A stretch of DNA of 45,303 bases, taken from the IMG/VR virus record IMGVR_UViG_3300027714_000034, positions 1 through 45,303 of that record; one strand, written 5' to 3'. The notes under the pieces were generated by a model. It saw nothing but the letters and a program-made list of their open reading frames with translations. It had not been told where the DNA came from and did not search any database. The position numbers were made by a program, and so were the translations under genes. The DNA is from a virus. Shown one piece after another: positions 7,404-45,303 of this stretch (its first letter is position 1; each line of letters opens with the position of its first letter).

Positions 7404-10400
7404 ATGATCATTGGATGGGTAATTGCGGCAGTAGTCGCCGTCGTCGTCGGTGCTGCTGCGATGATGAAGAAAATGCAGCAAAAGATGCAGGGAAAGCAGG
7501 GCGGGATGATGATCTCCAAGGAGGGCGGGTCGAATCCAATCAAGATGGTCTATGGCAAACGTCGCATTGGCACGGACAATGCGTGGAAGGGCGTCAATAA
7601 TCTGACTTTAAAAACGTCATCGGGATGGGATTCCGCATATATAAGCAGCCGTGAATCTCAACTAGGAAACACGGACAAAAAAAATGTGATGCTTCACCGT
7701 CTGGACGTCTGGTGTCAGGGCCCTATTCACTCAATTGGCAACTATAAAATCGACGGAGACAAAACCAGCCACACTCGATTTGCAAATGGAAAGGCGTGGG
7801 CCCGTATCCTCACAAAGCACGGGAACCCTAATCAAACAATGTTCTCGGCTATGTCGTCGGGTATTTACGCGATTGACTCATCAATGAAAGGCGAGGGGCT
7901 GGCATGGAGCTGGTCGCGATTTTACTATCACCCGGGAGAGCCTGAGTTCCAAGGCGAGCCAAATATCACCGCCGAGGTTCATGGCCTCAAGGTCTGGGAC
8001 CCGCGCACGAACCCCAACGATCAGACGGTCAAGTCATGGTCAGACAACCCTGCGCTGTGTTTACTCGACTATTTACTTGCCGACTATGGCAGAGCTCTCA
8101 ACATTGCTGACGTTGAAATTCAAACATTTATAAACGCCGCAAATTCCTGTGATTCGACGGTCACACTCCCAGCTGACCCCACCGCCACAGAGGGGCAAAC
8201 GATTTATGTGGCGATTTTGGGCCAGATGGTCGAAATCCCAGCGGGTGGACTGTTTCCGGATTATAGGGTCGGGCAGCCATCGGGCAATCGTAAACGCTAC
8301 ACCACAAACCTCGTCCTCGAATCCGACAACTCAACGATCGACAACTGCGCTGAGATACTCAAGACCATGAAGGGCTCCCTTCCTTTCGTCAATGGTAAAT
8401 ATAAGTTGCTGATGGAGGAGGAGGGCACCTCGGTGATGACGTTCAACGATGACAACATCCTCGGAGGTGTCAATCTCGGATGGGCTGATCGCTCGAAAAG
8501 GACAAACCGGGTGACTTTAAAGTTCCCGAACGAAAACAAAGGGTATCAGGACGACACTGTCAGCTGGCCACCAGCACATAGTCTCCTGCATGAAGCCTAC
8601 AAGGCCTACGACAACAATGAGGATCTACACTCGGAGTTTGAGCTGATAGGTGTCACCGACTTTTATCAAGCGCGTGACATGGCTGAGTTTGCAGTCCGCG
8701 AATCTCGGTCTCAGGAATATGTCACCTTTAAAACACAGCCACAGGCAATGGCTTTGGAATGCGGTGATGTCATAACAGTCTCTAACGATGCTCTGGATAT
8801 TGTCAGCAAACTCTATCGGGTCCGCGAGACCTCGATGAATGCTGACCTCACTGTCACAGTGAAGGCGCAGATCTATGACCCGACGATCTATCCGTGGAGT
8901 GTGGGCGACGAGGCCGCTGAGGCCGTGACCCTGAACATGACTCCCAGCCTGTTCGATCAGCCTGCTGTGATGCAAAACGTCACCGCATCGACAGCTACTC
9001 TGCTAAACGATGACGGGACGGCTCTCACGGAAGCGACTGTGACATGGGATGAAATTGAGACCGGAACCTCCGAGATCGATTACGTTGAAATCGGCTACAA
9101 ATTAAACGCCGAGACTGTCTATGTCTGGGCACTTGTTCCAGCGGAATCACTGTCGCATACAATCACCGGGCTGCAGGATGTGCAGCTGTATAACATAGCA
9201 GCACGCTATCGCAACACGGTGGGCAAGTTCTCGGATGTCGTGGTGGTCAATATTGGCACGCTAACAGCCGGGACGAATCTCGACGCCGCAGCAGTGGCCG
9301 CTCAAGCAGCAGCAGACGCAGCCGCTGTTGTTGCTGCTCAGGCTGTAACTGATGCAGCTGCTGCCGCTGCCGCTGTCTCCAATATAGACTTCACGCCTTA
9401 TTTGGTCAGCAGTGATGTGACAGATTTCATCACTCAAGCCGAAGCGGACGCCTCTCAGACCGCTGCTCAGACCTATGCGGATGGCCTGACGGCAAACCTT
9501 CAAACGGCTGCGCAAGTATCAGCAGCAATCGCTGCCGACACAACTTTGATAAATGGCGCACGCATAACCACCGGGACCATCAACGCCGCTCGAATAAGTC
9601 TTTCAGGTAAGAATATTTCGGACCTGAACAACAACAGTGGATTTGCTACTGGGACTGAGGTGTCGGATGCCGTCGCTGCAATTGACCTGTCGGGATACGT
9701 CGCGAACGGCGACCTGTCTGGCTATATAACAACGGCGCAGGGAGTTGCTCTGCAGTCCGCTGCTGAGGTCTATGCGGATGGCCTGACGGCAAACCTTCAA
9801 ACAGCTGCACAAGTATCATCAGCAATCGCTGCCGACACAACTTTGATAAACGGCGCACGCATAACCACCGGGACCATCAACGCCGCTCGAATAAGCATCT
9901 CGGGTAAGAACGCCTCAGATCTTAACAACGATGCGTTTGCTGTCCCGGCTGATATTGCTGATCTGGCCTCGTCCTCTGATGTCACAGCAGCACAAGCAGC
10001 GGCCCAGACATACGCCGACGGACTAACTGTCGGCCTTCAAACGGCTGCGCAAGTATCAGCAGCACTCGCTGCCGACACAACTTTGATAAATGGCGCACGC
10101 ATAACCACCGGGACCATCAACGCTGCTCGAATAAGTCTTTCAGGTAAGAATATTTCGGACCTGAACAACAACAGTGGCTACGCTCTGACCAGTCAGATCC
10201 CCAACGTGTCAAATCTACAAACTGCGGCACAGGTGGCTGCCGCCATAGCCTCCGACACAACGACGATCAACGGTTCGCGGATTGTAACTGGATCGCTGAG
10301 CGCCGGGAAAATCTCGGGCGGTACGCTAGACTTCACAAATGTGGAAGCCGATAATTTGTATGTGAGCTCGATACGCGGTGACGTGAACACACTGATCCCC

Positions 10401-12524: not shown

Positions 12525-12549
12525 AACCCTCGAAAGAGGGTTTTTTTTT
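12525..12549 (+). terminator. Intrinsic terminator between lysis genes and repressor
   Basis: AACCCTC (12525-12531) pairs with GAGGGTT (12536-12542) around a GAAA tetraloop, followed by nine T. It ends the late operon. On the other strand the hairpin abuts the repressor stop but has no T-tract, so it may serve both directions only weakly. Confidence 0.88.
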
Positions 12550-12877
12550 ACGATTCGTCGATGAGAAGCTCAGTCATCGTCACGGCTGTTTTACCCCATA
12601 GCCCGACGTAGGTCACTGGGTCATAGTAGGACATCAGTTTCTTTATAAAAAGGTCCTGATGGCAGCCCATTAGTTTAGCATAGCCGACAAAATGGTCGGG
12701 CGGGATGCGCGCTGAACCTGCTTCGATTTGGGCGATCATCGTATAATATGCTAGGTCTAGTGATTCTGCGACATCACGCTGGGTGAGGCCGCGATGGTTC
12801 CGCAGCTGTTTCAGGAAGAGGCCACCTTCCTTTCGGAGGACAAGTGATGCTGGTGTTCGTGACCCTTGTTTGTTCAT
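12548..12877 (-). CDS. XRE-family HTH repressor (cI-like candidate)
   Basis: This is the only clear minus-strand gene, with 109 residues from ATG 12877. Residues about 24-57 are a classic helix-turn-helix (GLTQRDVAESLDLAYYTMIAQIEAG). The remaining half lacks the S24 protease fold of lambda cI, so it would not be cleaved by RecA. An in-frame GTG at 12949 would add 24 residues but has no ribosome site. Upstream on its strand lies a tandem 17-bp duplication that makes a six-codon mini-ORF overlapping the start. It is divergent from the integrase block, as lysogeny repressors usually are. A GTGT-GCG-ACAC dyad at 12939-12949 is a possible operator. Confidence 0.75.
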   Translation of the reverse strand: MNKQGSRTPASLVLRKEGGLFLKQLRNHRGLTQRDVAESLDLAYYTMIAQIEAGSARIPPDHFVGYAKLMGCHQDLFIKKLMSYYDPVTYVGLWGKTAVTMTELLIDES

Positions 12878-12894
12878 GATCCTTGTTTGTTCAT
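12861..12894 (-). repeat. Tandem 17-bp duplication at the repressor start
   Basis: On the minus strand, ATGAACAAACAAGGATC (12894-12878) is followed at once by ATGAACAAACAAGGGTC (12877-12861). The first copy starts the frame MNKQGS-stop, whose TGA overlaps the second ATG (ATGA). The first ATG has GGGGGA about seven bases upstream; the second has only a too-close AAGGATC. This suggests translational coupling through a mini-ORF. Confidence 0.8.
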
Positions 12895-13076
12895 GGTTTA
12901 TCCCCCCATGTTTAGACCAAAAAAAGTTTGAATCTACCGTGTGCGACACTAGCGTCTTTGCAACAAAAAGTCACGCATATTTACATTCATAGGGCTTATA
13001 GTCACTATTGATTCCGCGTGGTCATAATCACAGGCGGCTTTCAAAAAATATGGTTTACTACAAATCTAAAGACACC

Positions 13077-13334
13077 ATGAGTGACACTAATTTGATTCAA
13101 CTAATGCTTGACCTTGAAAAACAGGCAACAACGCACAACCTGAGCGTATTTGCCATCCGTAGATTTGGACCTGTATATGTTACGGTTACGCAGCAGCTAC
13201 ACGCTGAGCGTTCGGGCTGGTCGGTCGATTTTGAGGAGCCTACTGTGGCGTCTGTTTATTGCCTTGCTGAGCACTTAGCAGCTAAGCCAAAGACCAACAA
13301 GACTGTCTACAAGACTGTCTACAATAAGGTTTAA
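13077..13334 (+). CDS. Small hypothetical protein between repressor and integrase
   Basis: An 85-residue protein reads divergently from the repressor. ATG 13077 is preferred; in-frame earlier starts lack ribosome sites, and this one has a weak AAAG. No domain is recognised. The position would suit an excisionase or Cro-like regulator, but no HTH is convincing. Its C-terminus (KTNKTVYKTVYNKV) is encoded by the first pair of ACTGTCTACAA repeats, so the coding end doubles as a probable recombination site. Confidence 0.5.
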   Translation: MSDTNLIQLMLDLEKQATTHNLSVFAIRRFGPVYVTVTQQLHAERSGWSVDFEEPTVASVYCLAEHLAAKPKTNKTVYKTVYNKV

Positions 13335-13498
13335 CCGGACAGCGTGGCTTGCCCTAAGTCGTTGATTTATCGCGTTTAAATTGGTCGACCGGAAAGTGGT
13401 CGGGAATGAGGGACCCTCAACAAAATTGACCTGAACCCCGCAAACCCACTACACACTGGCCTTTCTATAGCTTGCAACTGTCTACAAAACTGTCTACA
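13302..13498 (+). promoter_or_regulatory. Two tandem pairs of ACTGTCTACA: candidate integrase arm-type sites / attP region
   Basis: ACTGTCTACAA occurs at 13302-13312 and 13314-13324, again at 13477-13487, and as ACTGTCTACA at 13489-13498. Both pairs have a 12-bp period, and the pairs are 175 bp apart, just upstream of the integrase gene. Paired direct decamers beside int are the usual form of arm-type binding sites. The attP core itself was not identified. The 193 bases between genes (13335-13527) hold nothing else clear. Confidence 0.6.
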
Positions 13499-13527: not shown

Positions 13528-14781
13528 ATGCGCGCATCATACATAAAGCAGCGACACAATGTCTACTGGTTCCAACGTAGGCCCCCAAAAAAGCTGCACG
13601 ACCAGCTCGGCAGTAAGACAATCAGCATCAACCTGCACACCTCCGATCTATCCGTCGCCATAAACAAACGCGACCTAATTCTCGGAGAATGGGCTGCACT
13701 ATCCTCAACAAATAGATCGCCGGATATTTACGCCAAAAAACTCGCAGAGCTAAATGGTCAGGATCTGGCAGAGAGTCATGAGTATGTTCCAGAACCTGTG
13801 GTCGACGCCCTGTCACTCAGTGGGGCCCAAACGCAGGACGAGGCCGTCGATGCCCTGCGTGGTTTCAGTGCTGCCGACCGGGCTGCTTTTTGGGCGTGGC
13901 GGGCGGCCACCAAGTCTGAGACGCCTCCCGAGGAGTATGCCTACTCGATACGGGACGCACTGGCTGCAGTGATACCGCACAAGCGCGGAACGATCACCGA
14001 CCTCCACCTCGACAAGTACACCGTCGCCGTCGACCTGTTTATGGGTCCGGGTGTCGATGGCTCTCTCGAGGCAATCCGGAAGGGCGCAGTCGTTCGCTGG
14101 ATCGACACACTGACCCAAAGCAACAGCACGAAAAACACATACCTGAGCTGTCTCGGTTCTGTCTACGAGTACGCGCAGGACCGGGAGCTCATCAACGACC
14201 AGCTGGTGAATCCCTTCAAAGGAATCAAGCTCGGCAAGAAAGACACCAAGAGCTACAAGATGATGCCGCACGAGACGCTCAGGTCCATTCTGAGCCTATT
14301 AAAACCCAAAGATCACCTTCCAGCCGTCCTCGCTATAAACACCGGGATGCGCCTGTCTGAGGTGTTCAACGCGCAGCTGCAGATCCACGAGGGAATCCAC
14401 TGTCTGGTCCTCGAGGAAAGCGCGAGCTATAAAGGAGCGAAGACCGAAGCCGGGAATCGAATGGTCCCAATACCCGACCACCTACTCGCCGACGTCCTCG
14501 AGCAGCAGCCCGGATGGTCCGAGCACGGGGCCTATTCAAAACGATTCGGCAAAGCGAAGGCCAAAGTCATCAACTGTCGACAGACTGTGTTCCATTCCCT
14601 GCGGGTCAGCTTTATCACCGAGGCTCAGCGAGCTGGATACACTGAGCAGCAGGTTGCGTGGCTGGTTGGCCATGAGGCCGGGAAGGGCGACGCGATGACC
14701 GGGAAGCTATATTTCAAAGGCTACAGGCTGCAGCTCATGAAAGAGATCATCGAGGGCGCTGCCACTTTTAAGTCCACATAA
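13528..14781 (+). CDS. int: Tyrosine integrase (phage site-specific recombinase)
   Basis: This 417-residue recombinase inserts phage DNA at attB. The N-terminal part (YIKQRHNVYWFQRRPPKKLHDQLG) is an arm-binding-like beta domain; the middle is a SAM-like core-binding domain; the C-terminal part has all catalytic signatures. These are R275 (TGMRLSE), H356 and R359 (HSLR), H382 (VGHE) and the nucleophile Y395 (GKLYFKG). SD CGGAG precedes ATG 13528. CATTCGA at 13501-13507 can pair with TCGAATG at 13524-13530, which includes the start codon. A terminator follows at 14821. Confidence 0.92.
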   Translation: MRASYIKQRHNVYWFQRRPPKKLHDQLGSKTISINLHTSDLSVAINKRDLILGEWAALSSTNRSPDIYAKKLAELNGQDLAESHEYVPEPVVDALSLSGAQTQDEAVDALRGFSAADRAAFWAWRAATKSETPPEEYAYSIRDALAAVIPHKRGTITDLHLDKYTVAVDLFMGPGVDGSLEAIRKGAVVRWIDTLTQSNSTKNTYLSCLGSVYEYAQDRELINDQLVNPFKGIKLGKKDTKSYKMMPHETLRSILSLLKPKDHLPAVLAINTGMRLSEVFNAQLQIHEGIHCLVLEESASYKGAKTEAGNRMVPIPDHLLADVLEQQPGWSEHGAYSKRFGKAKAKVINCRQTVFHSLRVSFITEAQRAGYTEQQVAWLVGHEAGKGDAMTGKLYFKGYRLQLMKEIIEGAATFKST

Positions 14782-15018: not shown

Positions 15019-15101
15019 CTGCGCCGAATCAAACATTCCGCCGAGTAATTTACTGGGCGGTCCGTTTTTTGAACCTCAAAGAAACCAAAAGGATCTACAC
15101 C

Positions 15102-17621
15102 ATGAACCAGAAAGCGATTACCAATGAAATGAAAGAAAAGCAAATTCGCTGGGAAAACCATCAAGTCGAGGAGGGCGTCGCCAAGTACCAGAAAGCAATG
15201 GTCGAGAAGTCCATGAACGGCACGACAGGTGGCCAGCGTTTAATCAGCAACGCATTGCCTCAGACCATCGCGGCAATCAATGAGGCCTATCTCGAGGTTG
15301 ACGATTTAATGTTCAACAACACTCACGGTGGTGGGGTTGATAATTGGGTGTATATGATCGGACTGGTTTCGGCTGAGCAGACCGCTGTCATCGCTTTGAA
15401 TAAAGCCTTTGCATTTTGCTCCGAGGGTTCCTCGGATACCGTCTCAGGATTATCACGCAAACAGACCTCGCTACTGACTCGCAAGGCCGGGCTCAACCGA
15501 TTGGCCAAAAGCATCGGGCAAGCTCTGCGCCAGCAGCTAAAATTTGAAAACTGGAAAGCAAAGTCCAAAGCGGAATCCATTGGCGTGCTCAACGGTAAAG
15601 GTGAGCAAGTCAAAAAGTCATACGCCGAGCTTTTGATTGCTAGAGCGAAGGGTCAGATCAACAACCGCAAGCTCACCCGCTGGGAAAAGAAATTTGACAA
15701 CTACGCCAATATTGACTGGGGGACAGACGTCGTGAAAATTGGCTTCAAGATAATCGACATCCTCGTCGCAGCCAACCCGGGCCTGTTTAATTATGAAACG
15801 AAAAGAGAGCTCGGGAAAACGCAGAGATTTTTCTATTTGACTGAGGAGGCGTGGTCGGAGTACCAGAGTTGTGAAGATTTTGCAGAGCTGCAGAGCCCCT
15901 ACATGCTGCCGACCTTAATCGCTCCGGTCCCGTATGGATACGTCGACGGAAAGGTTCGGGGAGGCTATCACCATATCGAGTCGCCACTATTCAGCAACCA
16001 CCAAATGCAACACACCTCAGCTGACAAAACAGCGGCGTCGGAGCGATTCCTGAGCGCCGTCAATAATGTGCAGGCGACGATGTGGAAAATCAACCCATTC
16101 ATTTTGATGGTTGTCGATATGCTCTACGGGACCGGAGCTGAGGTCGGTGGTGTCACGCAGGCCTGTCATCAGGTCACCCCGGCGCTAAACTCTGACGCCT
16201 ACGCGGCACTGAATAAAACTGAGCGCAGCGCCTACCATGCGAAACGCAAAGACGCCATCGAGAAGATTGCCAGCGCCCGGGGAAAGCATGGGGCATTCCG
16301 TCGAAAAATAGAGATCGCTCACAAAATGGCGCAGCACCCAGAGTTCGCGTTTCCACATTTTGCAGATTTTCGCGGTCGCTTATACCCATACCCCAAAGAG
16401 CTCACGCCCCAAGGTGATCAGGTTGCAAAGTCTTTGCTCATGTTTGCTGAAGGAAAACCACTCGGGACCTCGGGCCTCAAGTGGCTCAAGATTCACGCAG
16501 CCAATTGCTATGGCAAGGACAAGGAGAGTCTCATCAATCGGGAGCTGTGGGCAACCTTCAACCTCGACCTGATGATCCGGGCGGCCTCGGACCCGCTAAC
16601 AAACGACGAGTGGACAGACGCCGCCGAGCCCCTGCTGTTTCTCGCCGCTGCCAAAGAGCTCGCCCGAGCTCATGAATCCGGGGACCCGACGACGTTCGTT
16701 TCACACATCCCGGTCGCCATCGATGGCACGACCAACGGAATGCAGATTCTGAGTATGTTGGGCAAAGATCAGGTCGGCGCTGAGGCGACCAATTGCACGG
16801 CCAAGGACGAGCGTTTTGACCTGTATGCGACGGTTGCTGCTTCGGTCCTGTCGATCCTATCACGCGAGGCTGGAGGGTCTGAAATCGCCGCAGAGTGGCT
16901 CAGAAGGCTACAGGATAACCCGGGCAAAAGTCGTGGACTGGTCAAACGTGCAGTGATGTGTGTCCCCTATGGTGTGACACCTCGGGGCATTGCTGAGCAG
17001 CTGGTCGGCGATAAGCACTGCAACGACTTTGAGTGCGCGAGCAGGGCTGATGCGAGCGTCTACATGACCGACTGCATCCTCGAGGCGATGACGTCGGTGA
17101 ACGGTAAGGCCGTCGAAATAATGAGCTACTTCCAAAAGGTGAGCGGCATCATTGCCAAGGCTGAGCTGCCACTTTCATGGACCACCCCGATGGGGCTGCG
17201 CGTGACTCAGGCCTATAACAAGACGTCGAAACGCGAGATCAAGACGGTCCTCGGCGACGTCATCCTGCACATGGAGGACAAGAAGCTCGGGCTGGATGCG
17301 CGTCGGCAGGCTCAATCGAGTGCGCCGAACATAATCCACAGCTTTGACGGGGCGCTGCTGCAGCTGACTGTCGAGAAGATGGCCGAGCAGGGGCACACGG
17401 ATTTCGCGATGATTCACGACAGCTATGGAATGCACGCCAGCGCGATCGAGGACCTCAATGCAGCCCTGAGACTCTCAGCTCTGGAGATCTTTCAGGAGGA
17501 CCAGATCCAAGCATTCCACGAGCAAATGGTTGAGCTGAGCGGTCTGGACCTTCCAGAGCCACCAGCGCGTGGTGAGTACCGGATCGAGGAGATCGAAAAG
17601 GCCCCCTATTTTTTTAGTTAA
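15102..17621 (+). CDS. T7-like single-subunit DNA-directed RNA polymerase
   Basis: At 839 residues it is slightly shorter than T7 RNA polymerase (883). Every catalytic landmark is present: D541 in VAIDGTTNGMQ (T7 D537), K615 and Y623 in LVKRAVMCVPYG (T7 K631 and Y639, O helix and nucleotide gate), and D773 in MIHDSYG (T7 D812). IIHSFDGALL precedes the last. The C-terminus ends in APYFFS, resembling the hydrophobic foot of T7. ATG 15102 follows AAAAGGATCTACACC. It would transcribe the middle and late genes from phage promoters. Its presence in a siphovirus with an integrase is unusual. Confidence 0.95.
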   Translation: MNQKAITNEMKEKQIRWENHQVEEGVAKYQKAMVEKSMNGTTGGQRLISNALPQTIAAINEAYLEVDDLMFNNTHGGGVDNWVYMIGLVSAEQTAVIALNKAFAFCSEGSSDTVSGLSRKQTSLLTRKAGLNRLAKSIGQALRQQLKFENWKAKSKAESIGVLNGKGEQVKKSYAELLIARAKGQINNRKLTRWEKKFDNYANIDWGTDVVKIGFKIIDILVAANPGLFNYETKRELGKTQRFFYLTEEAWSEYQSCEDFAELQSPYMLPTLIAPVPYGYVDGKVRGGYHHIESPLFSNHQMQHTSADKTAASERFLSAVNNVQATMWKINPFILMVVDMLYGTGAEVGGVTQACHQVTPALNSDAYAALNKTERSAYHAKRKDAIEKIASARGKHGAFRRKIEIAHKMAQHPEFAFPHFADFRGRLYPYPKELTPQGDQVAKSLLMFAEGKPLGTSGLKWLKIHAANCYGKDKESLINRELWATFNLDLMIRAASDPLTNDEWTDAAEPLLFLAAAKELARAHESGDPTTFVSHIPVAIDGTTNGMQILSMLGKDQVGAEATNCTAKDERFDLYATVAASVLSILSREAGGSEIAAEWLRRLQDNPGKSRGLVKRAVMCVPYGVTPRGIAEQLVGDKHCNDFECASRADASVYMTDCILEAMTSVNGKAVEIMSYFQKVSGIIAKAELPLSWTTPMGLRVTQAYNKTSKREIKTVLGDVILHMEDKKLGLDARRQAQSSAPNIIHSFDGALLQLTVEKMAEQGHTDFAMIHDSYGMHASAIEDLNAALRLSALEIFQEDQIQAFHEQMVELSGLDLPEPPARGEYRIEEIEKAPYFFS

Positions 17622-17627
17622 TAAGTA

Positions 17628-17706
17628 CAGTAACTTAATAATGCAAAGTTGTTGACAGGTCGCTGGGTGTGTGTTTTTATACTCGCACATTCAGTGACTT
17701 ACTAAC
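17628..17706 (+). promoter_or_regulatory. Sigma70-like promoter cassette 1
   Basis: CAGTAACTT (17628) and AAGTTGTTG (17646) form an imperfect dyad overlapping the -35 TTGACA (17652-17657). The -10 is uncertain: TTTATA (spacer 18) or TATACT (spacer 20). CAGTGACTTACTAAC follows at 17692-17706, then the gene at 17726. It shares the AAGTTGTTGACAGGTC block with the three other cassettes. Confidence 0.7.
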
Positions 17707-17725
17707 TACCAAAAAGGCCTACACA

Positions 17726-18097
17726 ATGTTGAACATTTACCAAATCGTAATCCTCGAAAACGAAATCGATCCGCGCAACGCATGGGAATCTCCCAAATTT
17801 GTCGCGCAGCAGGAGACCTCGGTATTCGGCGTCGATCGTTTTGAAGACAAGCACGAGCAGTTCTACAAAAAGGTTTGCGAGACCACTTTCACCGAACTTG
17901 AACAGGCCTTTCACGGGATGAACATGTGGACAGATGAGAGCGAGGCAAAAATCACTCGACTGCGTCCCCTGCACTCACTATCTGTCGGCGACATCGTCCA
18001 CAACACGGCCACTGGCACAGCTTACATGTGCGGCCGAACTGGATGGGGTCAGCTGTCAGCCTGTCAAACTGCACGCATTACGGGAGCAGCAGCATGA
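17726..18097 (+). CDS. Hypothetical protein, first gene of the early cassette
   Basis: A 123-residue acidic protein. ATG 17726 is chosen because it lies just downstream of promoter cassette 1, whereas an in-frame start at 17669 would lie within the promoter. The C-terminal segment RPLHSLSVGDIVHNTATGTAYMC resembles the HSLSVSDIV signature of YodL-like domains seen in small phage and plasmid proteins. The N-terminal part (MLNIYQIVILENEIDPRNAW) is a beta strand with a short helix. No biochemical role known. It overlaps the next gene by ATGA. Confidence 0.7.
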   Translation: MLNIYQIVILENEIDPRNAWESPKFVAQQETSVFGVDRFEDKHEQFYKKVCETTFTELEQAFHGMNMWTDESEAKITRLRPLHSLSVGDIVHNTATGTAYMCGRTGWGQLSACQTARITGAAA

Positions 18098-18288
18098 AGA
18101 TCAAAATCGAAACGACTGTCAATGTGGACCCGGAGATTATCCGGGCCTATCAGGCCGAGCTGGGCTGCAGCGATGAAACGATCAGGGAGTTTGTGCGCAG
18201 CTGGATAATCTCAGGCGGCGTCGGGTCTCTCGAGCAGTCTCTGATGAATAACGGATTCGACCACACAGCTGTGGAGGTTGTCGCTTGA
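18094..18288 (+). CDS. Small hypothetical protein
   Basis: 64 residues from ATG 18094, inside the previous stop, with GGGAG eight bases upstream. The sequence MKIKIETTVNVDPEIIRAYQAELGC has a strand and then helices (DETIREFVRSWIIS), a shape like ribbon-helix-helix proteins, though this is only a structural impression. The following gene begins in its stop. Confidence 0.65.
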   Translation: MKIKIETTVNVDPEIIRAYQAELGCSDETIREFVRSWIISGGVGSLEQSLMNNGFDHTAVEVVA

Positions 18289-18458
18289 AGTTCACAATCT
18301 ATGAACAAGCCAACAGAAGACCAGCCAGAAGCAAGAAAACAGCCGGAGGCTACAAAATGGGCCCGGATGAAATACGGACCGCACTCTGCAAATGCAGCAA
18401 CCGCCAAGGTGATTGGATCACTGGCTGTCGATCCTGCGGTCGCCGCATTGAAGCATAA
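18285..18458 (+). CDS. Tiny zinc-knuckle-like protein (TTG start)
   Basis: 57 residues from TTG 18285, which overlaps the previous stop and has GGAGG seven bases upstream. The tail carries CKC, ten residues, then CRSC, a plausible zinc site (TALCKCSNRQGDWITGCRSCG). A second start, ATG 18357, also has GGAGG seven bases upstream and would give only the 33-residue zinc part. A competing frame, 18301-18471 (56 residues, starting MNKPTEDQPEARKQPEAT), is also open and ends in the ATGA of the next gene. Which frame is used is not settled. Confidence 0.5.
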   Translation: MKFTIYEQANRRPARSKKTAGGYKMGPDEIRTALCKCSNRQGDWITGCRSCGRRIEA

Positions 18459-18467
18459 GGATAAAAA

Positions 18468-18590
18468 ATGAAAACCCAAACCAACTCCCCGGGGATTCCC
18501 CGGGTCATCCTCGGCCTGCTACTCGCGGGCCTTTATTTGTGGGCCAGCGAAATGGCCTTTCACGATTGCATCACTTTGGGAGTTTGCTAA
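18468..18590 (+). CDS. Small single-pass membrane protein
   Basis: 40 residues: a short polar start, then a hydrophobic helix (VILGLLLAGLYLWASEMAF) and a short tail with two cysteines. ATG 18468 follows AAGGATAAAAA, and its stop TAA overlaps the next ATG (TAATG). It is one of several tiny membrane peptides in the early region; these are often host-takeover or exclusion factors, but the role here is unknown. Confidence 0.6.
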   Translation: MKTQTNSPGIPRVILGLLLAGLYLWASEMAFHDCITLGVC

Positions 18591-18859
18591 TGCACGGACA
18601 AAACCACGGCGGGAAGGGTTCCGCACAACGTATCTCGAATCAAGAACGATTCAACAATAATTTTGACGCTATATTCGGAAAGAAAAAAGAAACCCAGCCA
18701 GAGGGTCATTGTGCCCGCTGTGACGCCTCCCGATATGAGGGTGAGTTCTATGTCAGAGAGGAGCGGGAAAGCTATGACATGGGAGATCAGACTGTCTGGG
18801 AGACCTATGAGTTCAAGTGCTGCCATGTCTGTGATGAGGAGCTCGACCCTAATGAATAA
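18590..18859 (+). CDS. Small conserved-type phage protein with zinc-finger cysteines
   Basis: 89 residues. The start HGQNHGGKGSAQR followed by FNNNFDAIFGKKK matches a very common small phage protein type (GGKGS...R plus WDAIFGK). The C-terminal half has CARC and CCHVC pairs about 45 residues apart, a probable zinc ribbon. It begins in the stop of the previous membrane peptide (TAATG) and overlaps the next gene by eight bases. Function unknown. Confidence 0.7.
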   Translation: MHGQNHGGKGSAQRISNQERFNNNFDAIFGKKKETQPEGHCARCDASRYEGEFYVREERESYDMGDQTVWETYEFKCCHVCDEELDPNE

Positions 18860-19067
18860 GATGACCGAGGCGCTGTTGGAGCTCGCCAGAGAGCTCAGGG
18901 ACGTCGATGCGCAGCTGGACCTGCTGACCATCCGCAGCATCGAAGGGCAGGGCAGAGACATTGCAGCTCAGTCTGCTCACCGGGATCTGGTCCGGGACCG
19001 TATGTTCCGACAGGCTGGTGAGTCGGGTGTGGATTTGCTACCTGTAAGGGCTTTTTTTTATTCCTAA
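18852..19067 (+). CDS. Small hypothetical protein, helical
   Basis: 71 residues, predicted almost entirely helical with heptad-like spacing (LLELARELRDVDAQLDLLTIRSI). ATG 18852 lies within the end of the previous gene, with GAGGAG about ten bases upstream. It is the last gene of the first early cassette; promoter cassette 2 starts just after its stop. No function recognised. Confidence 0.55.
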   Translation: MNKMTEALLELARELRDVDAQLDLLTIRSIEGQGRDIAAQSAHRDLVRDRMFRQAGESGVDLLPVRAFFYS

Positions 19068-19070
19068 ATA

Positions 19071-19150
19071 CAGTGACTTTATATTGCAAAGTTGTTGACA
19101 GGTCCCCCGGTATCATTATAATAGGGGCCATACTACAGTGACTTACTAAC
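19071..19150 (+). promoter_or_regulatory. Sigma70 promoter cassette 2
   Basis: Consensus -35 TTGACA (19095-19100) and -10 TATAAT (19117-19122) with a 16-bp spacer. CAGTGACTT (19071) and AAGTTGTTG (19089) form a dyad overlapping the -35. CAGTGACTTACTAAC (19136-19150) lies around +8 to +22. Transcription would start near 19129, leading to the gene at 19164. Confidence 0.85.
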
Positions 19151-19163
19151 CCGGAGAGACATT

Positions 19164-19400
19164 ATGAAAAGCAATTTTTTATCAGAGTTTGAAATCCAGC
19201 AAATGGCAGAGGCTGCGCTGACGTCTTACGAATTCAGCTGCTGCTGGAAGCGCGCCTTTCAGGAAGCCGCTGAGTTTGCAGCCGACGAGCTGGGTGTCAA
19301 CGCCACTCGCGCACAAGCAGCAACCGCAGTGCGCATCGCGCAGACCGGGTGGGAAGGCATCCGCAACTGTGTCCAAGCTGTTCAATACCGCAACGCATAA
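19164..19400 (+). CDS. Small hypothetical protein of cassette 2
   Basis: 78 residues, mostly helical (FEIQQMAEAALTSYEFSCCWKRAF, then AAEFAADELGVNATRAQAATAVRIA). ATG 19164 follows CCCGGAGAGACATT, the leader shared with the cassette 3 gene. It is followed by a TCCG hairpin and a second gene. Its strong consensus promoter suggests it is among the first and most highly expressed genes. Function unknown. Confidence 0.65.
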   Translation: MKSNFLSEFEIQQMAEAALTSYEFSCCWKRAFQEAAEFAADELGVNATRAQAATAVRIAQTGWEGIRNCVQAVQYRNA

Positions 19401-19408
19401 AACCATCA

Positions 19409-19422
19409 GGCCCTCCGGGGCC
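19409..19422 (+). other. UNCG-type hairpin GGCCC-TCCG-GGGCC
   Basis: A five-pair GC stem with TCCG loop between the two genes of cassette 2, followed by ATTAGGAGACAACC, the ribosome site of the next gene. No T-tract. The near-identical arrangement at 19873 suggests cassette duplication. Confidence 0.65.
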
Positions 19423-19436
19423 ATTAGGAGACAACC

Positions 19437-19601
19437 ATGACACACTCAGAAGCACGCGCAGAAAAACTGACCAAAGACCACGCCGCGATCCGTCGACAGG
19501 CCGCAGAGAACCGCAAGGGGATCGAGCGCCTGCAGCACGCCAAAAAGGTCCGGGCAGATCCAAGAACCTCCGGCATTTTTTGCGCTTTAAATATACAGTA
19601 A
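19437..19601 (+). CDS. Small basic hypothetical protein
   Basis: 54 residues, helical and basic (EKLTKDHAAIRRQAAENRKGIERL). ATG 19437 follows AGGAGACAACC. The last codons run into promoter cassette 3: its stop TAA lies inside the CAGTAACTT element. That overlap suggests either recent cassette joining or a lengthened C-terminus. Function unknown. Confidence 0.55.
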   Translation: MTHSEARAEKLTKDHAAIRRQAAENRKGIERLQHAKKVRADPRTSGIFCALNIQ

Positions 19602-19675
19602 CTTTGCATTATAAAGTTGTTGACAGGTCCTGGGATTTGCCTATAATACGGGCCATACTACAGTGACTTACTAAC
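19596..19675 (+). promoter_or_regulatory. Sigma70 promoter cassette 3
   Basis: TTGACA (19620-19625) and TATAAT (19642-19647), 16-bp spacer. CAGTAACTT (19596) and AAGTTGTTG (19614) form the upstream dyad, with AACTTT/AAAGTT arms visible as an inverted repeat. CAGTGACTTACTAAC follows at 19661-19675. From the CATACTACAG preceding the last element to the CCCGGAGAGAC leader it is identical to cassette 2. Confidence 0.87.
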
Positions 19676-19688
19676 CCGGAGAGACAAA

Positions 19689-19862
19689 ATGAGCAACTAC
19701 CAAGCAGCTATCAGCAAAGACTCAGAAGGCAGCTTTTATGCGCTAGTCGTTCGAATCGAGAGCGACGGCTACAAAGTGGTCTGCTACGGCTACAAGGGCC
19801 GCCACTTTAAAACTGAGGCTGCTGCGATCCGCTCAACCTCCAACTACATCGCAAAATGCTAA
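19689..19862 (+). CDS. Small hypothetical protein of cassette 3
   Basis: 57 residues with alternating strands (SFYALVVRIESDGYKVVCYGYKGRHF) and a C-terminal helix (TEAAAIRSTSNYIAKC). ATG 19689 follows CCCGGAGAGACAAA. It resembles short beta-beta-beta-alpha phage proteins but no family is recognised. It is followed by a TCCG hairpin and a second gene, the same plan as cassette 2. Confidence 0.65.
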   Translation: MSNYQAAISKDSEGSFYALVVRIESDGYKVVCYGYKGRHFKTEAAAIRSTSNYIAKC

Positions 19863-19872
19863 TCAACCAAAC

Positions 19873-19886
19873 GGCCCTCCGGGGCC
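19873..19886 (+). other. UNCG-type hairpin GGCCC-TCCG-GGGCC
   Basis: Same 14-base hairpin as at 19409, again just before an AGGAGACAACCATG start. The flanks ATCAGGAGACAACC and ATTAGGAGACAACC differ at one base. Confidence 0.65.
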
Positions 19887-19900
19887 ATCAGGAGACAACC

Positions 19901-20212
19901 ATGCTACAGATCGACGACGAATTAAATGTATACCGCAACCAGCTGGACCGTGAGGCCATCGTTCTCGCTGTCTGGAAGCACAAGGCCCTCATCGAGTACA
20001 CCATGCCCAATGGCACCAGCGCCCTCAATATCATCGCCAGCGACGACGTCCACGGCGAGGGCGATTACAGATCAGTCAGCTACTACGGCCTGACGCTGCG
20101 CTGGTTGAAGATTTTGGTCGAGCAGTCTGTGGCGTGGGAAGGGCGTCCACAAAAAGGCAATCCGTGCCCCACACCTTTGGATGCTTTGAGCATCAAGGTC
20201 GGTGCAGCATGA
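19901..20212 (+). CDS. Hypothetical protein
   Basis: 103 residues from ATG 19901 (SD AGGAG). A strand-rich start (IVLAVWKHKALIEYTMPNGTSALNIIASDD) is followed by a helix (LTLRWLKILVEQSVAWEG). Soluble; no family recognised. Its stop overlaps the next start (ATGA). Confidence 0.6.
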   Translation: MLQIDDELNVYRNQLDREAIVLAVWKHKALIEYTMPNGTSALNIIASDDVHGEGDYRSVSYYGLTLRWLKILVEQSVAWEGRPQKGNPCPTPLDALSIKVGAA

Positions 20213-20346
20213 GCGTCCATGAACTACGCGAGGAGATGGTCCGATCGTTCTCAGATTTGGAGCTCCGGGACATGCTCGCTGACCTGATGCCTGATACCCC
20301 AATGCACGCTGCGTGCCTCACAGAGGCCCTGCGTCGCTGTAACTAA
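20209..20346 (+). CDS. Tiny hypothetical protein
   Basis: 45 residues, acidic and helical (VHELREEMVRSFSDLELRDMLADL). ATG 20209 overlaps the previous stop, so it is probably translationally coupled. It is the last gene of the early region, followed by a terminator at 20370. Confidence 0.55.
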   Translation: MSVHELREEMVRSFSDLELRDMLADLMPDTPMHAACLTEALRRCN

Positions 20347-20369
20347 TTAACCCCTAGCAATCCCCCTTT

Positions 20370-20392
20370 GGCCCCTCGTGGGCCTTTTTTTT
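20370..20392 (+). terminator. Intrinsic terminator ending the early region
   Basis: GGCCC (20370-20374) pairs with GGGCC (20380-20384) around CTCGT, followed by eight T. It separates the sigma70-driven early genes from the replication block, which has its own T7-like promoter at 20430. Confidence 0.85.
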
Positions 20393-20429
20393 GCCTGTCT
20401 GAAACCCAGCCAGACTGCGGCCTGCAGCA

Positions 20430-20456
20430 ATCGGTCACAAAACCCCGCCCTATAGA
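20430..20456 (+). promoter_or_regulatory. Candidate phage RNA polymerase promoter B
   Basis: ATCGGTCACAAAACCCCGCC followed by CTATAGA. It aligns without gaps to 29681-29707 with 24 of 27 identical bases. The CCCTATA-G core, with initiation expected at G20455, resembles T7 (CACTATA-G), SP6 and T3 promoters. It lies between the early terminator and the first replication-block gene, where a class II promoter would be expected. Confidence 0.75.
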
Positions 20457-20510
20457 GGACCCCCCAGTCTCTAAGTCATTAAGACGCACCCGATGTGTCA
20501 AGGAGTAATC

Positions 20511-20675
20511 ATGAACAAACCAAGCAGCCCCCGAATGATAGACATGACAAATGCAGAGATCGACAGGAAGGCGAAGATCAGCACGGTTGATGAATATGTG
20601 AGCTCGTTGTCTAGGCCCAGAGCTGGACCCTATTGGGTCAGACCCGATGGGACCATCGAGATGGAGAAGCAATGA
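20511..20675 (+). CDS. Small hypothetical protein
   Basis: 54 residues from ATG 20511, with AAGGAG six bases upstream. N-terminal NKPSSPRMIDMTNAEIDRK, later RPRAGPYWVRPDGTIEM. It is the first gene after promoter B. No family recognised; the next gene begins in its stop (ATGA). Confidence 0.6.
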   Translation: MNKPSSPRMIDMTNAEIDRKAKISTVDEYVSSLSRPRAGPYWVRPDGTIEMEKQ

Positions 20676-28898: not shown

Positions 28899-29681
28899 AT
28901 GGAACCAATCGACAAGGTGGCGCTGCTCGACGCAGACGTCATCAACTATGTTGCGAGCTCATCAGCACAGCGGGATTTTGGTGGTGAGATCTGGACTGAC
29001 ATCAGCTCGGCAATCGCCGACGCTGAGGAACAGATTGAGAAGGAAATGCGACAGGCTGGCTGCAACTCGGTCATCCTTGTTTACTCACCGAAAACATCTA
29101 CCAACTGGCGCAAGCTGATCATGCCTGCCTACAAGATGAACCGCAAAGCAAAGCCAAAGCCTATCTGTTACGGGGAGCTGCGCACAGCACTCGAGGCACG
29201 TTATGACCACATATCCATCGACTGGCTCGAGGGCGACGATCTGTTTCACATGCTCCATCGAAAGATCCCGGACAGTGTCATCGTGTCAATCGACAAGGAC
29301 ATGTTCACGCTTCCAGATGCTCAGTATCTGCGGCCCCATGTCATGGCGTGGCCAGAGTACACCACAGAGTCTGACGCCAATCATTTCTGGCTCACTCAGG
29401 TTCTCATGGGCGACAGCACGGATGGCTACAAGGGCCTGATGGGCTGCGGTCCTAAAGGTGCGCACGCGCTGCTCAAGGACTATTGGGTCGGTGAGTATTT
29501 TGATTTTAAAGAAGCATGGGGCGCTGTTGTGGCAGCCTACAAAGCAAAAGGGCAGGACAACTACCTCGAGCAGGCGCAGATGGCTCGTATCCTTCGCGAG
29601 GGAGACTACGACAGCCTGAACAGAGCCATCCGGCTATTCAACCCGGACGAGGAACAGTGGTTATACCTCCCGGACGTCTAA
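28899..29681 (+). CDS. 5'-3' exonuclease (T7 gp6/FEN-like)
   Basis: 260 residues. FEN/PIN-type acidic sites: D11 and D13 (LLDADV), EGDDLFHML, VSIDKDM, then the helix-hairpin-helix-type GDSTDGYKGLMGCGPKGA. It removes RNA primers and supplies recombination ends. SD AGGAGAC precedes ATG 28899, nine bases after the polymerase stop. Its stop codon abuts the candidate phage promoter A. Confidence 0.88.
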   Translation: MEPIDKVALLDADVINYVASSSAQRDFGGEIWTDISSAIADAEEQIEKEMRQAGCNSVILVYSPKTSTNWRKLIMPAYKMNRKAKPKPICYGELRTALEARYDHISIDWLEGDDLFHMLHRKIPDSVIVSIDKDMFTLPDAQYLRPHVMAWPEYTTESDANHFWLTQVLMGDSTDGYKGLMGCGPKGAHALLKDYWVGEYFDFKEAWGAVVAAYKAKGQDNYLEQAQMARILREGDYDSLNRAIRLFNPDEEQWLYLPDV

Positions 29682-29707
29682 TCGGTCACACAAACCCTCC
29701 CTATAGA
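29681..29707 (+). promoter_or_regulatory. Candidate phage RNA polymerase promoter A
   Basis: ATCGGTCACACAAACCCTCC followed by CTATAGA, with the first base shared with the exonuclease stop. AACCCTCCCTATAGAAGGAG compares directly with the T3 consensus AACCCTCACTAAAGGGAGA. It is the partner of promoter B (24 of 27 identical). Initiation is expected at G29706. It stands at the border between replication and late genes. Confidence 0.75.
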
Positions 29708-29898
29708 AGGAGGAATCGATTTTACATGTTGCAACCACGTCGATGTCCTAAGTGACTGCCAAGGAACCTAATTCGGAGCCTGTATTCCACAGAGAACCCC
29801 GCTACACCCAACCTTCGCCGAATAGGCCAGACTTACATGGAGTCTGACCGACTTTTATCAAAAAGCAGCCCGAGACCTCAAAGCCTCGGGCTTTTTTT
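29706..29898 (+). ncRNA. Candidate ~190-nt phage small RNA
   Basis: From the predicted start of promoter A to the terminator at 29867-29898 there is no gene longer than a nine-codon frame (29726-29755, with AAGGAGG upstream). A stem CAGACT/AGTCTG (29828-29846) precedes the terminator hairpin. Promoter, structured gene-free body and terminator together suggest a short stable transcript or an attenuated late leader. Confidence 0.45.
29867..29898 (+). terminator. Strong intrinsic terminator
   Basis: AGCCCGAG (29867-29874) pairs perfectly with CTCGGGCT (29885-29892), ten-base loop, then seven T. It lies 25 bases before the dNMP kinase start and would stop most transcription coming from the replication genes or from promoter A. 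Confidence 0.9.
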
Positions 29899-32118: not shown

Positions 32119-32197
32119 CAGTAACTCTTTGTTATAAAGTTGTTGACAGGTCCTGTAAGCTCTACTAATATGTGCGCATATTCAGTAACTTACTAAC
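32119..32197 (+). promoter_or_regulatory. Sigma70-like promoter cassette 4
   Basis: CAGTAACTC (32119), AAGTTGTTG (32137), -35 TTGACA (32143-32148), -10 about TAATAT (32166-32171, spacer 17), then CAGTAACTTACTAAC (32183-32197) and the CCCGGAG leader. Same plan as cassettes 1-3 but placed among late structural genes. Confidence 0.75.
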
Positions 32198-32210
32198 CCG
32201 GAGCAACAAC

Positions 32211-32939
32211 ATGAAAAAAGCAACTCATACAGGCGAATGTCAGATCTGCGGAAACACTCAAGCTCTTCCGAGTGGCGTATTGTCTAAGCACGGCTACACA
32301 GTACAATGGGGATTTTTTGAGGGCGTATGTTCAGGCCACGGCAAGCAGCCATTTGAGTTGAGCTGTGACGACATCGCTTTATTTGTTAAGCAGGTACGCG
32401 CTCAGCTGGCCAGAACTCAAGCAGAGCGTCACGAGCTGCTCACAGGTCCTGTCAGCTACTGGGTCCGCGAGATCACCACACGCAACTGGGTCCGCTTTTC
32501 TGATCTAGCCGCAGCAAACGGTCACACCGAAACGAAAACCAATCGCCACGGCAAAGATGAGCTGATCAGCTCAAACAAGCCCTCTAGCGTCGCCCAGTAT
32601 GTCGAATACACACACGACAGGTTAATTGCTGACATGGAGAAGTATATTGAGTGGCAGGCCGAGCGCGTGGCTAACTGGGCTCCAAAAGCACTGACACCAA
32701 TCGACGGTCGCCACATCCTGCACTTTCAGCGTTCACGCCCGGTGCTTGTAGGCGATTCGATCAAAATGAGAGTCCTGTCCGAAAAGTCGGCATGTAACCG
32801 CACTTCTGGCTGGAGCGCCAAGCAGTACCGTGAGCTGTCCCCTACTGGAAACTATAAAGTCTGCACGACGTGCCACGCAGCGTTCGAAGAATACGAAGCG
32901 ATGAAAGAGAAGATAAAAGCAGACTTTTACAGCAACTAA
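32211..32939 (+). CDS. Zinc-finger-like hypothetical protein (moron candidate)
   Basis: 242 residues from ATG 32211, directly after promoter cassette 4. N-terminal CQICGNTQALPSGVLSKHGYTV, with GFFEGVCSGHG downstream, forms a probable zinc site; a late CTTC pair (KVCTTCHAAF) may add another. The pattern resembles uncharacterised phage and plasmid proteins. It has its own promoter, a TCCG hairpin and a terminator after it, and sits between the terminase subunits, the arrangement of a moron expressed independently of the lytic operon. Function unknown. Confidence 0.7.
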   Translation: MKKATHTGECQICGNTQALPSGVLSKHGYTVQWGFFEGVCSGHGKQPFELSCDDIALFVKQVRAQLARTQAERHELLTGPVSYWVREITTRNWVRFSDLAAANGHTETKTNRHGKDELISSNKPSSVAQYVEYTHDRLIADMEKYIEWQAERVANWAPKALTPIDGRHILHFQRSRPVLVGDSIKMRVLSEKSACNRTSGWSAKQYRELSPTGNYKVCTTCHAAFEEYEAMKEKIKADFYSN

Positions 32940-32948
32940 TTACCAAAC

Positions 32949-32962
32949 GGCCCTCCGGGGCC
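32949..32962 (+). other. UNCG-type hairpin GGCCC-TCCG-GGGCC
   Basis: The same 14-base hairpin as in early cassettes 2 and 3, here 10 bases after the moron gene stop and 17 bases before a true terminator. It marks this insertion as a member of the same cassette family. Confidence 0.65.
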
Positions 32963-32978
32963 TTACGCCTTCCCCAAG

Positions 32979-33001
32979 AGCCGCACATGGTGCGGTTTTT
33001 T
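32979..33001 (+). terminator. Intrinsic terminator closing the moron cassette
   Basis: CCGCAC (32981-32986), ATG loop, GTGCGG (32990-32995), then six T. It ends the transcript from promoter cassette 4. Confidence 0.85.
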
Positions 33002-39830: not shown

Positions 39831-40637
39831 ATGAGTAAAGCACGCGACTATGCGGATTTACGCAACGACCTCGACGATGCTGCTTTCAGTGGTAACTATT
39901 CAGACCTAGTGGGCACGCCTACGATTCCGAGTGCAGTATCGCAGCTATCGAATGATTCTGGATATTTAACAGAGGGAGCCACGGGCCCACAAGGACCGCA
40001 AGGACCTGCGGGCTCGTCCTCAACTGTTGCAGGCCCGCAAGGCCCTGCTGGTTCTACTGGCAGCCAAGGCCCACAAGGTGCTACAGGTGCCACAGGTGCC
40101 ACAGGTGCCGCAGGTGATGATGGCAGTCAAGGTCCACAGGGCAACACTGGAGCCGCTGGTCCGCAAGGTGCTACAGGTGCCGCAGGTGCTGCTGGTGATG
40201 ATGGCAGCCAAGGTCCACAGGGCAACACTGGAGCCACTGGCCCACAAGGTGCTACAGGTGCAGCAGGCGCTGCTGGTGATGATGGCAGCCAAGGTCCACA
40301 AGGCAACACTGGAGCAACTGGCAGCCAAGGTCCCCAAGGCAACACTGGAGCCACTGGCCCACAAGGTGCTACAGGTGCCGCAGGCGCTGCTGGTGATGAT
40401 GGCAGCCAAGGTCCACAAGGCAACACTGGAGCAACTGGCAGCCAAGGTCCCCAAGGTAACACGGGCGCACAGGGTGCCACCGGAGCAGCCGGGCCCACGG
40501 GCAGCCAAGGCCCACAAGGAAACACAGGGCCCCAAGGTGCCACCGGAGCTGCAGCCGCAGTTCTGCACTCAGTGGTTACATCTATTCCGACAAGTGGCTC
40601 CGGCTACCCGGTAGGACATATCTGGTATGTCGTATGA
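39831..40637 (+). CDS. Collagen-like fibre protein
   Basis: 268 residues. After the shared [22 protein letters not shown] anchor comes [10 protein letters not shown], then about 180 residues of uninterrupted Gly-X-Y ([30 protein letters not shown]). A short cap ([24 protein letters not shown]) ends the protein. It should trimerise into a collagen triple helix, likely a head or tail fibre. It overlaps the next gene by ATGA. Confidence 0.85.
39980..40560 (+). repeat. Gly-X-Y coding repeat array
   Basis: Tandem nine- and longer-base units. Blocks of about 60-120 bases encoding [17 protein letters not shown] are near-identical in DNA (for example around 40190-40320 and 40380-40460). This allows slippage or recombination that would change fibre length in steps. 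Confidence 0.85.
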
Positions 40638-44041: not shown

Positions 44042-44732
44042 CACGCCATTCACGGCAATCACTGAGGCCTCAATCAAAAAAAATATGCCGGGCAAGGGCT
44101 ACACGATCGTCGGCCTGAATGGTGGGATCATCCGCACTGCGCTGGAGGAGTGTGACAACGAGCTCACACTGGTTGTGATGGGTGGTGTCATTCTTGAGAT
44201 CGGACCGGGCGACATCCCGCCGCTGCAAAAGCTCTCAGAGTTTCATATTTGTGCGGCACGATCTCAGGTCTATTCGGACCACCCGACACTGTCTCGATTT
44301 TATAGCTACACCGAGAGTCCTTGCAATCAAGGTCAGGTTGATCTCGGCATTTTCATTATTAATCCAAAGTTGTGGACCACGATCCCGGACAGAGACGCCG
44401 GTGCATTGCGCGACAAGAAACTGATGAAGATGCCCCGCTATATGAACCACAAAACCGACATCCTCGTCAGTAATTGTCTCAGTCCCTATGAGGCCCTGAA
44501 GTACGGGATGCTCGGCTATATGGCGTCGGCTTTCAACTATTTGGACATTCTACAAAAAGGCAGCGCCACCACGATTGAGGGCTATGCCTACAGGCTCGAC
44601 AAGCTCGCAGAATATTCTGACGACCCAGAAATAAAAATCCTGGCACTAAAGCCGAGCATAACCAAACTACGAGAACGGCTATTTATAGCCCAGAGGTATC
44701 AAGATGGAAGGCGTGATTTTAACCAAACCTAA
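44013..44732 (+). CDS. Hypothetical protein, possible glycosyltransferase-like
   Basis: 239 residues from ATG 44013 (GGAG nine bases upstream; it overlaps the previous gene by 29 bases). It starts with a hydrophobic strand (LNLLIIDTPF), then ELTLVVMGGVILEIGPG, LGIFIINPKLW and a late helical LSPYEALKYGMLGYMASAFNYL. The strand-D and the FIINPKLW segment recall nucleotide-sugar-binding folds, but no DXD motif is clear. The call is only an impression. It overlaps the following gene by 29 bases. Confidence 0.65.
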   Translation: MLNLNLLIIDTPFTAITEASIKKNMPGKGYTIVGLNGGIIRTALEECDNELTLVVMGGVILEIGPGDIPPLQKLSEFHICAARSQVYSDHPTLSRFYSYTESPCNQGQVDLGIFIINPKLWTTIPDRDAGALRDKKLMKMPRYMNHKTDILVSNCLSPYEALKYGMLGYMASAFNYLDILQKGSATTIEGYAYRLDKLAEYSDDPEIKILALKPSITKLRERLFIAQRYQDGRRDFNQT

Positions 44733-45228: not shown

Positions 45229-45303
45229 GGTAACCAACGAAAGGACAAACAATGTCACAAGTACAATTAAACAGGTCGGGTGTCGTCGGACACGTCCCGG
45301 CAA
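44720..45303 (+). repeat. Terminal direct repeat, right copy
   Basis: Partner of 1-584. The right copy is 95.4 percent identical by my count (27 mismatches), concentrated in the middle of the gene. Confidence 0.9.
45252..45303 (+). CDS. Head-tail connector gene, 3'-truncated second copy
   Basis: The start of the gene at 533-1435 seen again at the right edge (17 codons). It is identical to the left copy over its visible length, which supports circular wrap-round rather than a true duplication. Confidence 0.8.
   Translation, partial: MSQVQLNRSGVVGHVPA

Follow-up and report, generated by a model that had tools for sequence, protein, structure and literature searches.

Two repeated sites as probable promoters of the T7-class RNA polymerase of a siphovirus with a relative integrated in a SAR92 genome

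The stretch of DNA analysed here (the window; IMG/VR record IMGVR_UViG_3300027714_000034, 45,303 nucleotides) is the almost complete genome of a marine siphovirus in which nearly all genes read in one direction. Because the window ends repeat each other, with positions 1 to about 584 recurring nearly exactly, if not perfectly, at 44720-45303, the genome has a circular map of about 44.7 kb; the repeated ends may stem from mixed strains in the assembly or represent a terminal repeat. The structural genes encode terminases, portal, protease, capsid, tail terminator, major tail protein, tail chaperone, tape measure, distal tail protein and fibre J, and are accompanied by T7-type replication genes for a Gp2.5-like SSB, RusA-like resolvase, primase/helicase, ribonucleotide reductase, DNA polymerase, exonuclease and dNMP kinase. 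With a tape measure, major tail protein, tail terminator and fibre J, and no short-tailed virion genes, the phage does not fit the Autographiviridae; the combination of siphovirus structural genes with a T7-like RNA polymerase is that of Xp10-like siphoviruses. Strongly repetitive coding sequence at 9456-10174 and 40056-42500 (tail-fibre and upstream structural region) varies between relatives, and one related contig (L016, 46-4314) carries collagen-like coding repeats. The features on which the following analysis draws are listed below by position in the window and strand.

12548-12949, minus strand: candidate helix-turn-helix repressor (Pfam HTH_3, E = 1.8e-6, above cut-off; PHROG 3, transcriptional repressor, E = 1.9e-5)
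13528-14781, plus strand: integrase (PHROG 1 integrase, E = 1.2e-26; a relative is integrated in a SAR92 genome)
15102-17621, plus strand: T7-class single-subunit RNA polymerase (PHROG 414, T7 RNA polymerase in PDB, catalytic residues)
17628-17701, plus strand: host sigma-70 type promoter cassette with CAGTRACTT boxes
19071-19144, plus strand: host sigma-70 promoter cassette, TTGACA-16-TATAAT, with CAGTRACTT boxes
19596-19669, plus strand: host sigma-70 promoter cassette, TTGACA-16-TATAAT, with CAGTRACTT boxes
20370-20392, plus strand: early terminator, GGCCCCTCGTGGGCC then T8, directly before promoter 1
20430-20456, plus strand: predicted promoter 1, start G20455, which would drive the replication block (repeat search, weight matrix, relatives)
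29681-29707, plus strand: predicted promoter 2, start G29706 (repeat search, weight matrix, relatives)
29706-29866, plus strand: conserved stretch behind promoter 2 with no credible gene, a candidate noncoding RNA; all three lineages have an equivalent
29867-29898, plus strand: intrinsic terminator, GCCCGAG hairpin and T run, at the same place in L047 and in L020, L048 and L049

A close relative of the window is found in the SAR92 clade bacterium H921, where a 519-kb contig (JAOALD010000003.1) encodes a polymerase 96% identical to that of the window. It lies in a prophage of about 44.8 kb (about 264.5-309.4 kb) that matches the window at 84-94% identity along most of its sequence. Homology to the window ends near 309.4 kb and 265.0 kb, and genes for tRNA-Arg (309387-309463) and tRNA-Pro (264449-264525) lie directly outside the prophage. 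Since this relative is integrated between tRNA genes of H921, it is temperate and its host is a SAR92 bacterium; the same lifestyle and host are presumed for the window. Short tandem-like repeats (ACTGTCTACAA) at 13290-13498, just before the integrase gene, are also present in the prophage and in L016 (6226-6406) and are possibly integrase arm sites or an attachment region.

The polymerase ORF opens at TTG 15069, and ATG 15102 has a ribosome-binding site. The protein matches PHROG 414 over the whole profile (positions 3-816 of 816; E = 1.3e-176), and in the PDB it matches T7 RNA polymerase (E = 5e-53). When it is aligned with T7, T3, SP6 and other polymerases, D552, K626, Y634, H783 and D784 are invariant; they correspond to D537, K631, Y639, H811 and D812 of T7. 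The full-length family match and the catalytic residues place the protein among T7-class single-subunit RNA polymerases, its best matches in named phages being 26-32% identical; no DNA match to named phages was found for 15069-20600. In the tree, the polymerases of the window, L014, L016 and L020 form one clade (100/100) on a long branch. This clade groups with the phiL7 polymerase, the representative of Xp10-like phages in the tree and itself a long branch, in 0% of 200 bootstrap trees, placing it outside the Xp10/phiL7 clade. L021, recovered by profile search with a polymerase 28% identical, was left out as a relative.

The early block contains sigma-70 type promoters near 17650, 19095 and 19620; the hexamers of the latter two are perfect. 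CAGTRACTT boxes stand before the -35 element and near the start site, and one also precedes the polymerase gene. The window has eight exact copies (15002, 17628, 17692, 19071, 19136, 19596, 19661 and 32183, all on the plus strand) against about 0.7 expected. To judge from its family matches, the helix-turn-helix protein at 12548-12949 would be the lysogeny regulator and is the obvious repressor candidate; the boxes are likely its operators. A separate unit at 32143-33000, inserted between the genes for the small and large terminase subunits, consists of a single gene (32172 or 32211 to 32939) with its own sigma-70 promoter, a CAGTAACTT box and a terminator, and looks like an independently controlled cargo gene.

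Between the early block and the structural genes lie the two sites that are the main subject of this analysis, site 1 (20430-20456, ATCGGTCACAAAACCCCGCCCTATAGA) and site 2 (29681-29707, ATCGGTCACACAAACCCTCCCTATAGA), both on the plus strand. Direct reading confirmed the original prediction that they are identical at 24 of 27 bases without gaps; all three differences fall inside an 8-base spacer. When as many as three mismatches are allowed, ATCGGTCACA-N8-CCCTATAGA occurs exactly twice in the 45.3-kb window, and in 100 dinucleotide shuffles of the window the mean number of occurrences was 0.00 and the largest 0. A weight matrix built from the known sites scored 41.2 and 37.4 bits at these places and 7.6 bits at the next best, and its scan of the window yielded no third copy. 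A CCCTATAAA sequence at 30048, considered as a further promoter, was rejected, as it lies inside the dNMP-kinase gene and has no score in the full weight-matrix scan. Outside the motif the two sites are unlike, with 15 of 60 flanking positions identical upstream and 21 of 60 downstream.

The position of the sites likewise agrees with the prediction, which had placed them after the early terminator and at the replication/late border. Site 1 begins 38 bp past the hairpin-T8 terminator (20370-20392), its predicted start G20455 being 63 bp beyond the terminator, and the first gene behind it (ATG 20511, with an AAGGAG ribosome-binding site) follows 56 bp downstream. The first base of site 2 is the last base of the exonuclease ORF (28899-29681), and downstream of it come the dNMP kinase gene (29923) and the terminase-portal-capsid block. 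Both sites are thus intergenic or at a gene end, at block borders and in the direction of transcription; the start points put forward earlier, G20455 and G29706, coincide with the predicted +1 positions. Short (about 20-27 bp), repeated, gene-directed and placed at block borders, the elements have the organization of T7-class phage promoters. They are also few, as anticipated: two in the almost complete window genome and three in each of two other lineages, the count for one of these being pieced together from two contigs.

The exact motif is present in 10 other IMG/VR contig stretches, always at one of the same two places, and at both places in the SAR92 prophage. Besides the prophage, site 1 is found in L001, L003, L007, L010 and L012-L015, and site 2 in L002-L006 and L008. 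Every relative with the same polymerase whose contig reaches the site has the motif; its lack from such relatives had been named as the observation that would speak against the prediction. L014, with a polymerase 84% identical, keeps GTCACA-N8-CCCTATAGAGG within the full site GTCACAAAAACCCGCCCTATAGAGGACCCCCC. More informative are two further lineages (L016 and L020), the polymerases of which are 51-53% identical to that of the window. In L016 and L017, the motif is CACGTAAAGCCCCCC(T/C)TTAGAGAG, present in two copies 103 bp apart right after the early terminator; it recurs at the exonuclease/dNMP-kinase border in L047, a contig without a polymerase gene that is tied to L016 only by the shared sample and motif. 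In L020 (part of G002), two copies of TGTAACGAAAAAGGTCCCATACAGAAG separated by 125 bp again follow the early terminator, and another, with one change, stands at the late (exonuclease/dNMP-kinase) border; L048 and L049 have the late copy, and the motif of this lineage reads GTAACGAAAAA(G/A)GTCCCATACAGAAG. As in the window, the early terminator precedes the first site in both L016 and L020.

In an alignment anchored at the start point, copies from separate loci of the same lineage agree at 21-25 of 25 columns, and sites of different lineages, of which three could be compared, at 10-18 of 25. The motif thus varies with the polymerase lineage, across three lineages only. Common to all of them are the TATAG/TTTAG/TACAG core and, just behind it, a GA-rich start (GAGG, GAAG or GAGA). 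Separated sites that change together, in step with the divergence of the polymerase, are what would be expected if one co-evolving protein reads them all, and polymerases 51-53% identical with motifs of their own at the same two places are the strongest evidence in this comparison. Because the motifs co-diverge with the polymerase in three lineages, we consider the promoter reading well supported.

Likeness to the promoters of T7 and T3, which the original prediction had named, contributes less. The general form holds, with a C-rich segment from -12 to -5 followed by TATA|G, but a distinctive sequence match does not: in +1-aligned comparisons each of the two sites agrees with T7 phi1.1A at 16 of 23 positions, and site 2 with T3 phi1.05 at 15 of 23, and two sequences inside one window gene match T7 phi1.1A at 17 and 16 of 23, beating or equalling the sites. 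Such moderate likeness suggests the class of promoter and would prove nothing alone; since it is not distinctive, the case for promoters rests on position, number and co-divergence. The sites share with T7 and T3 promoters C at -9, -7 and -5 and TATA before the start G, and the enzyme is of the same class with its catalytic residues kept; they differ in a longer conserved region (to -25), a GA-rich start in place of GGG, and in being two instead of many. The specificity loop of the window polymerase also seems to differ from that of T7 and T3. In those enzymes promoter specificity involves R746, N748 or D749, R756 and Q758; the loop aligns ambiguously with theirs, and in the window most likely only R746 is kept. 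Reading specificity from the T7/T3 residue code was abandoned, as the residues have no clean correspondence in this ambiguous alignment.

T7 RNA polymerase protects -17 to +6 of its promoters. The segment from -25 to -18 is conserved here, yet lies outside that footprint, and for this reason part of the motif may serve another protein. A stronger version of this idea, that the sites as a whole bind some other phage protein (a repressor or antiterminator) or act as RNA-level signals, would fit with the position, mostly upstream of the T7 footprint, of the half of the motif with the highest conservation (-25 to -16). We regard it as very improbable: the candidate repressor operator is already CAGTRACTT, found at eight places and unrelated to the motif; no sigma-70 promoter stands beside either site; an RNA-level signal is unlikely to be transcribed when it stands directly behind a terminator; and the core before the GA-rich start is kept in all lineages. 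A chance repeat or a recent duplication devoid of function has in its favour that there are only two copies in the window; this explanation deserves next to no credence, given that the flanks of the two sites are unrelated, that the motif is invariant in eight sequences in which flanking third codon positions differ by 21-40%, that it is found in independent assemblies and a bacterial genome, and that the same loci are occupied in other lineages by repeats specific to them.

More serious is the possibility that the phage polymerase uses these promoters mainly to prime DNA replication, as at the primary origins of T7 and T3, and not for gene expression. The tandem copies 103-125 bp apart before the replication genes of L016 and L020 resemble T7 phi1.1A/phi1.1B, annotated 75 bp apart, and the T3 primary origin is just after phi1.05. 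On the other hand, site 1 of the window is single and stands 56 bp before a gene with a ribosome-binding site, and in LUZ100 a tandem promoter pair before the SSB gene was read as serving strong expression (PMC10134795). Priming as the main role is therefore improbable in our view, although both roles can be compatible at the same sites. On the combined sequence comparisons, we favour the reading that the phage's own T7-class RNA polymerase uses the two sites as promoters, probably its only ones, within the transcription programme outlined below, with a probability of about 0.9. Comparison with relatives thus supports the predicted assignment to the phage polymerase, whereas the T3/T7 likeness and the late-border role need to be softened.

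With regard to the latter, site 2 does lie at the replication/late border, but it is not simply a late-operon promoter, because a conserved terminator follows within 190 bp. The order behind the second site is the same in the three lineages: a stretch with no credible gene, a hairpin-T terminator and the dNMP kinase gene, the stretch and terminator together measuring about 170-190 bp. Among eight sequences of the window lineage, 5.7% of the compared bases are variable in 29706-29866, compared with 21% and 40% of third codon positions in the flanking genes and no position of the promoter motif. A CGATTTT block close to the beginning of the noncoding stretch and a (T/A)AGTGACTG-like block are common to the window and L020 lineages. 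A structured RNA at 29706-29866 was considered and rejected: the fold is not above chance (z-scores of -0.2 to -0.8 in three lineages), the window scan returned no Rfam hit at the gathering threshold that would assign the stretch to a known RNA family, and the cross-lineage alignment is too gappy for covariation analysis. It is conservation, not structure, that speaks for the noncoding stretch. A nine-codon frame, MLQPRRCPK, at 29727-29756 (ATG 29727) stands behind AGGAGG; it shows only a silent change in the window lineage and is absent elsewhere.

We tentatively suggest, while rating the odds as clearly below even, that promoter 2 serves mainly to produce, through the phage polymerase, a dedicated noncoding RNA of about 190 nt with its own terminator, retained in three lineages despite their altered promoter sequences, the late genes being reached only by read-through. 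No further phage promoter and no convincing host promoter for the late operon were found in the window, and read-through seems needed for this reason; the terminator at 29867-29898 would accordingly be leaky. The sigma-70 cassette at 32143 was dismissed as a late promoter, since it is one of the CAGTRACTT set and has a terminator at 32976-33000, and so more likely serves the gene just behind it.

In the transcription programme that we infer, from polymerase binding and start points to promoter strength, timing and read-through, the host sigma-70 promoters would act after infection or induction, having presumably been kept silent by the helix-turn-helix repressor in the lysogen, and early host transcription would yield the phage polymerase and small early proteins before halting at the terminator 20370-20392. 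The phage polymerase would then transcribe the replication genes from G20455 and, from G29706, a short noncoding RNA mostly ending at 29867-29898, with read-through past this terminator supplying the late head and tail genes.

The analysis provides concrete candidate polymerase-promoter pairs from an uncharacterised clade of T7-like polymerases of siphoviruses, among them a temperate siphovirus found in a SAR92 bacterium. With different motifs at syntenic positions, the three pairs open the evolution of promoter specificity to direct tests that use matched enzymes and templates; they are also possible orthogonal expression tools. The comparison also exposes a conserved cassette of promoter, noncoding stretch and terminator at the replication/late border; if the RNA of about 190 nt is real, be it a regulator, a packaging RNA or a replication RNA, it would represent a new phage RNA family.

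A T7-like polymerase together with few promoters is already known from siphoviruses; new are the polymerase clade, its motifs, the SAR92 prophage and the conserved second-site cassette. Xp10 is a siphovirus with a T7-like polymerase in which two near-identical 43-bp repeats upstream of the structural genes contain experimentally confirmed promoters (PMC4331800) and a terminator lies between early and late genes (PMC3985653); BUCT603 of Stenotrophomonas is likewise a siphovirus with a T7-like polymerase (PMC9294509). Like BUCT603 and the Xanthomonas phages Xp10 and phiL7, the window combines lambda-type tail genes with such a polymerase, and it shares with Xp10 two near-identical phage promoters, as predicted here, detected as repeats, and the early/late terminator. 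Unlike in Xp10, the sites are not side by side but 9.25 kb apart at two borders. Unlike phiL7, the window has a polymerase of a separate clade, and the polymerase and replication genes of phiL7 are on the strand opposite to its tail and lysis genes, whereas nearly all window genes read one way. An intergenic 39-nt tandem pair in phiL7 (L058, 28080-28161; 82% identical, 43 bp apart) possibly represents its polymerase promoters, by analogy with Xp10. An integrase, a candidate repressor and the SAR92 prophage further set the window group apart from Xp10, phiL7 and BUCT603. It resembles the temperate T7-like podoviruses (LUZ100, the Paadamvirus members RHEph01 and vTRX32-1, and HTVC119P) in having an integrase gene upstream of the polymerase gene and T7-like replication genes. 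LUZ100 is T7-like with temperate features and has eight phage promoters, one before its own polymerase gene (PMC10134795), and Paadamvirus relatives are T7-like phages with temperate features as well (PMC8631192). As in LUZ100, the motif is only partly T7-like, and LUZ100 has tandem promoters before its SSB gene (PMC10134795). However, LUZ100, RHEph01, vTRX32-1 and HTVC119P have podovirus virions, and the polymerases of RHEph01, CRP-113 and HTVC119P are only about 28% identical to that of the window.
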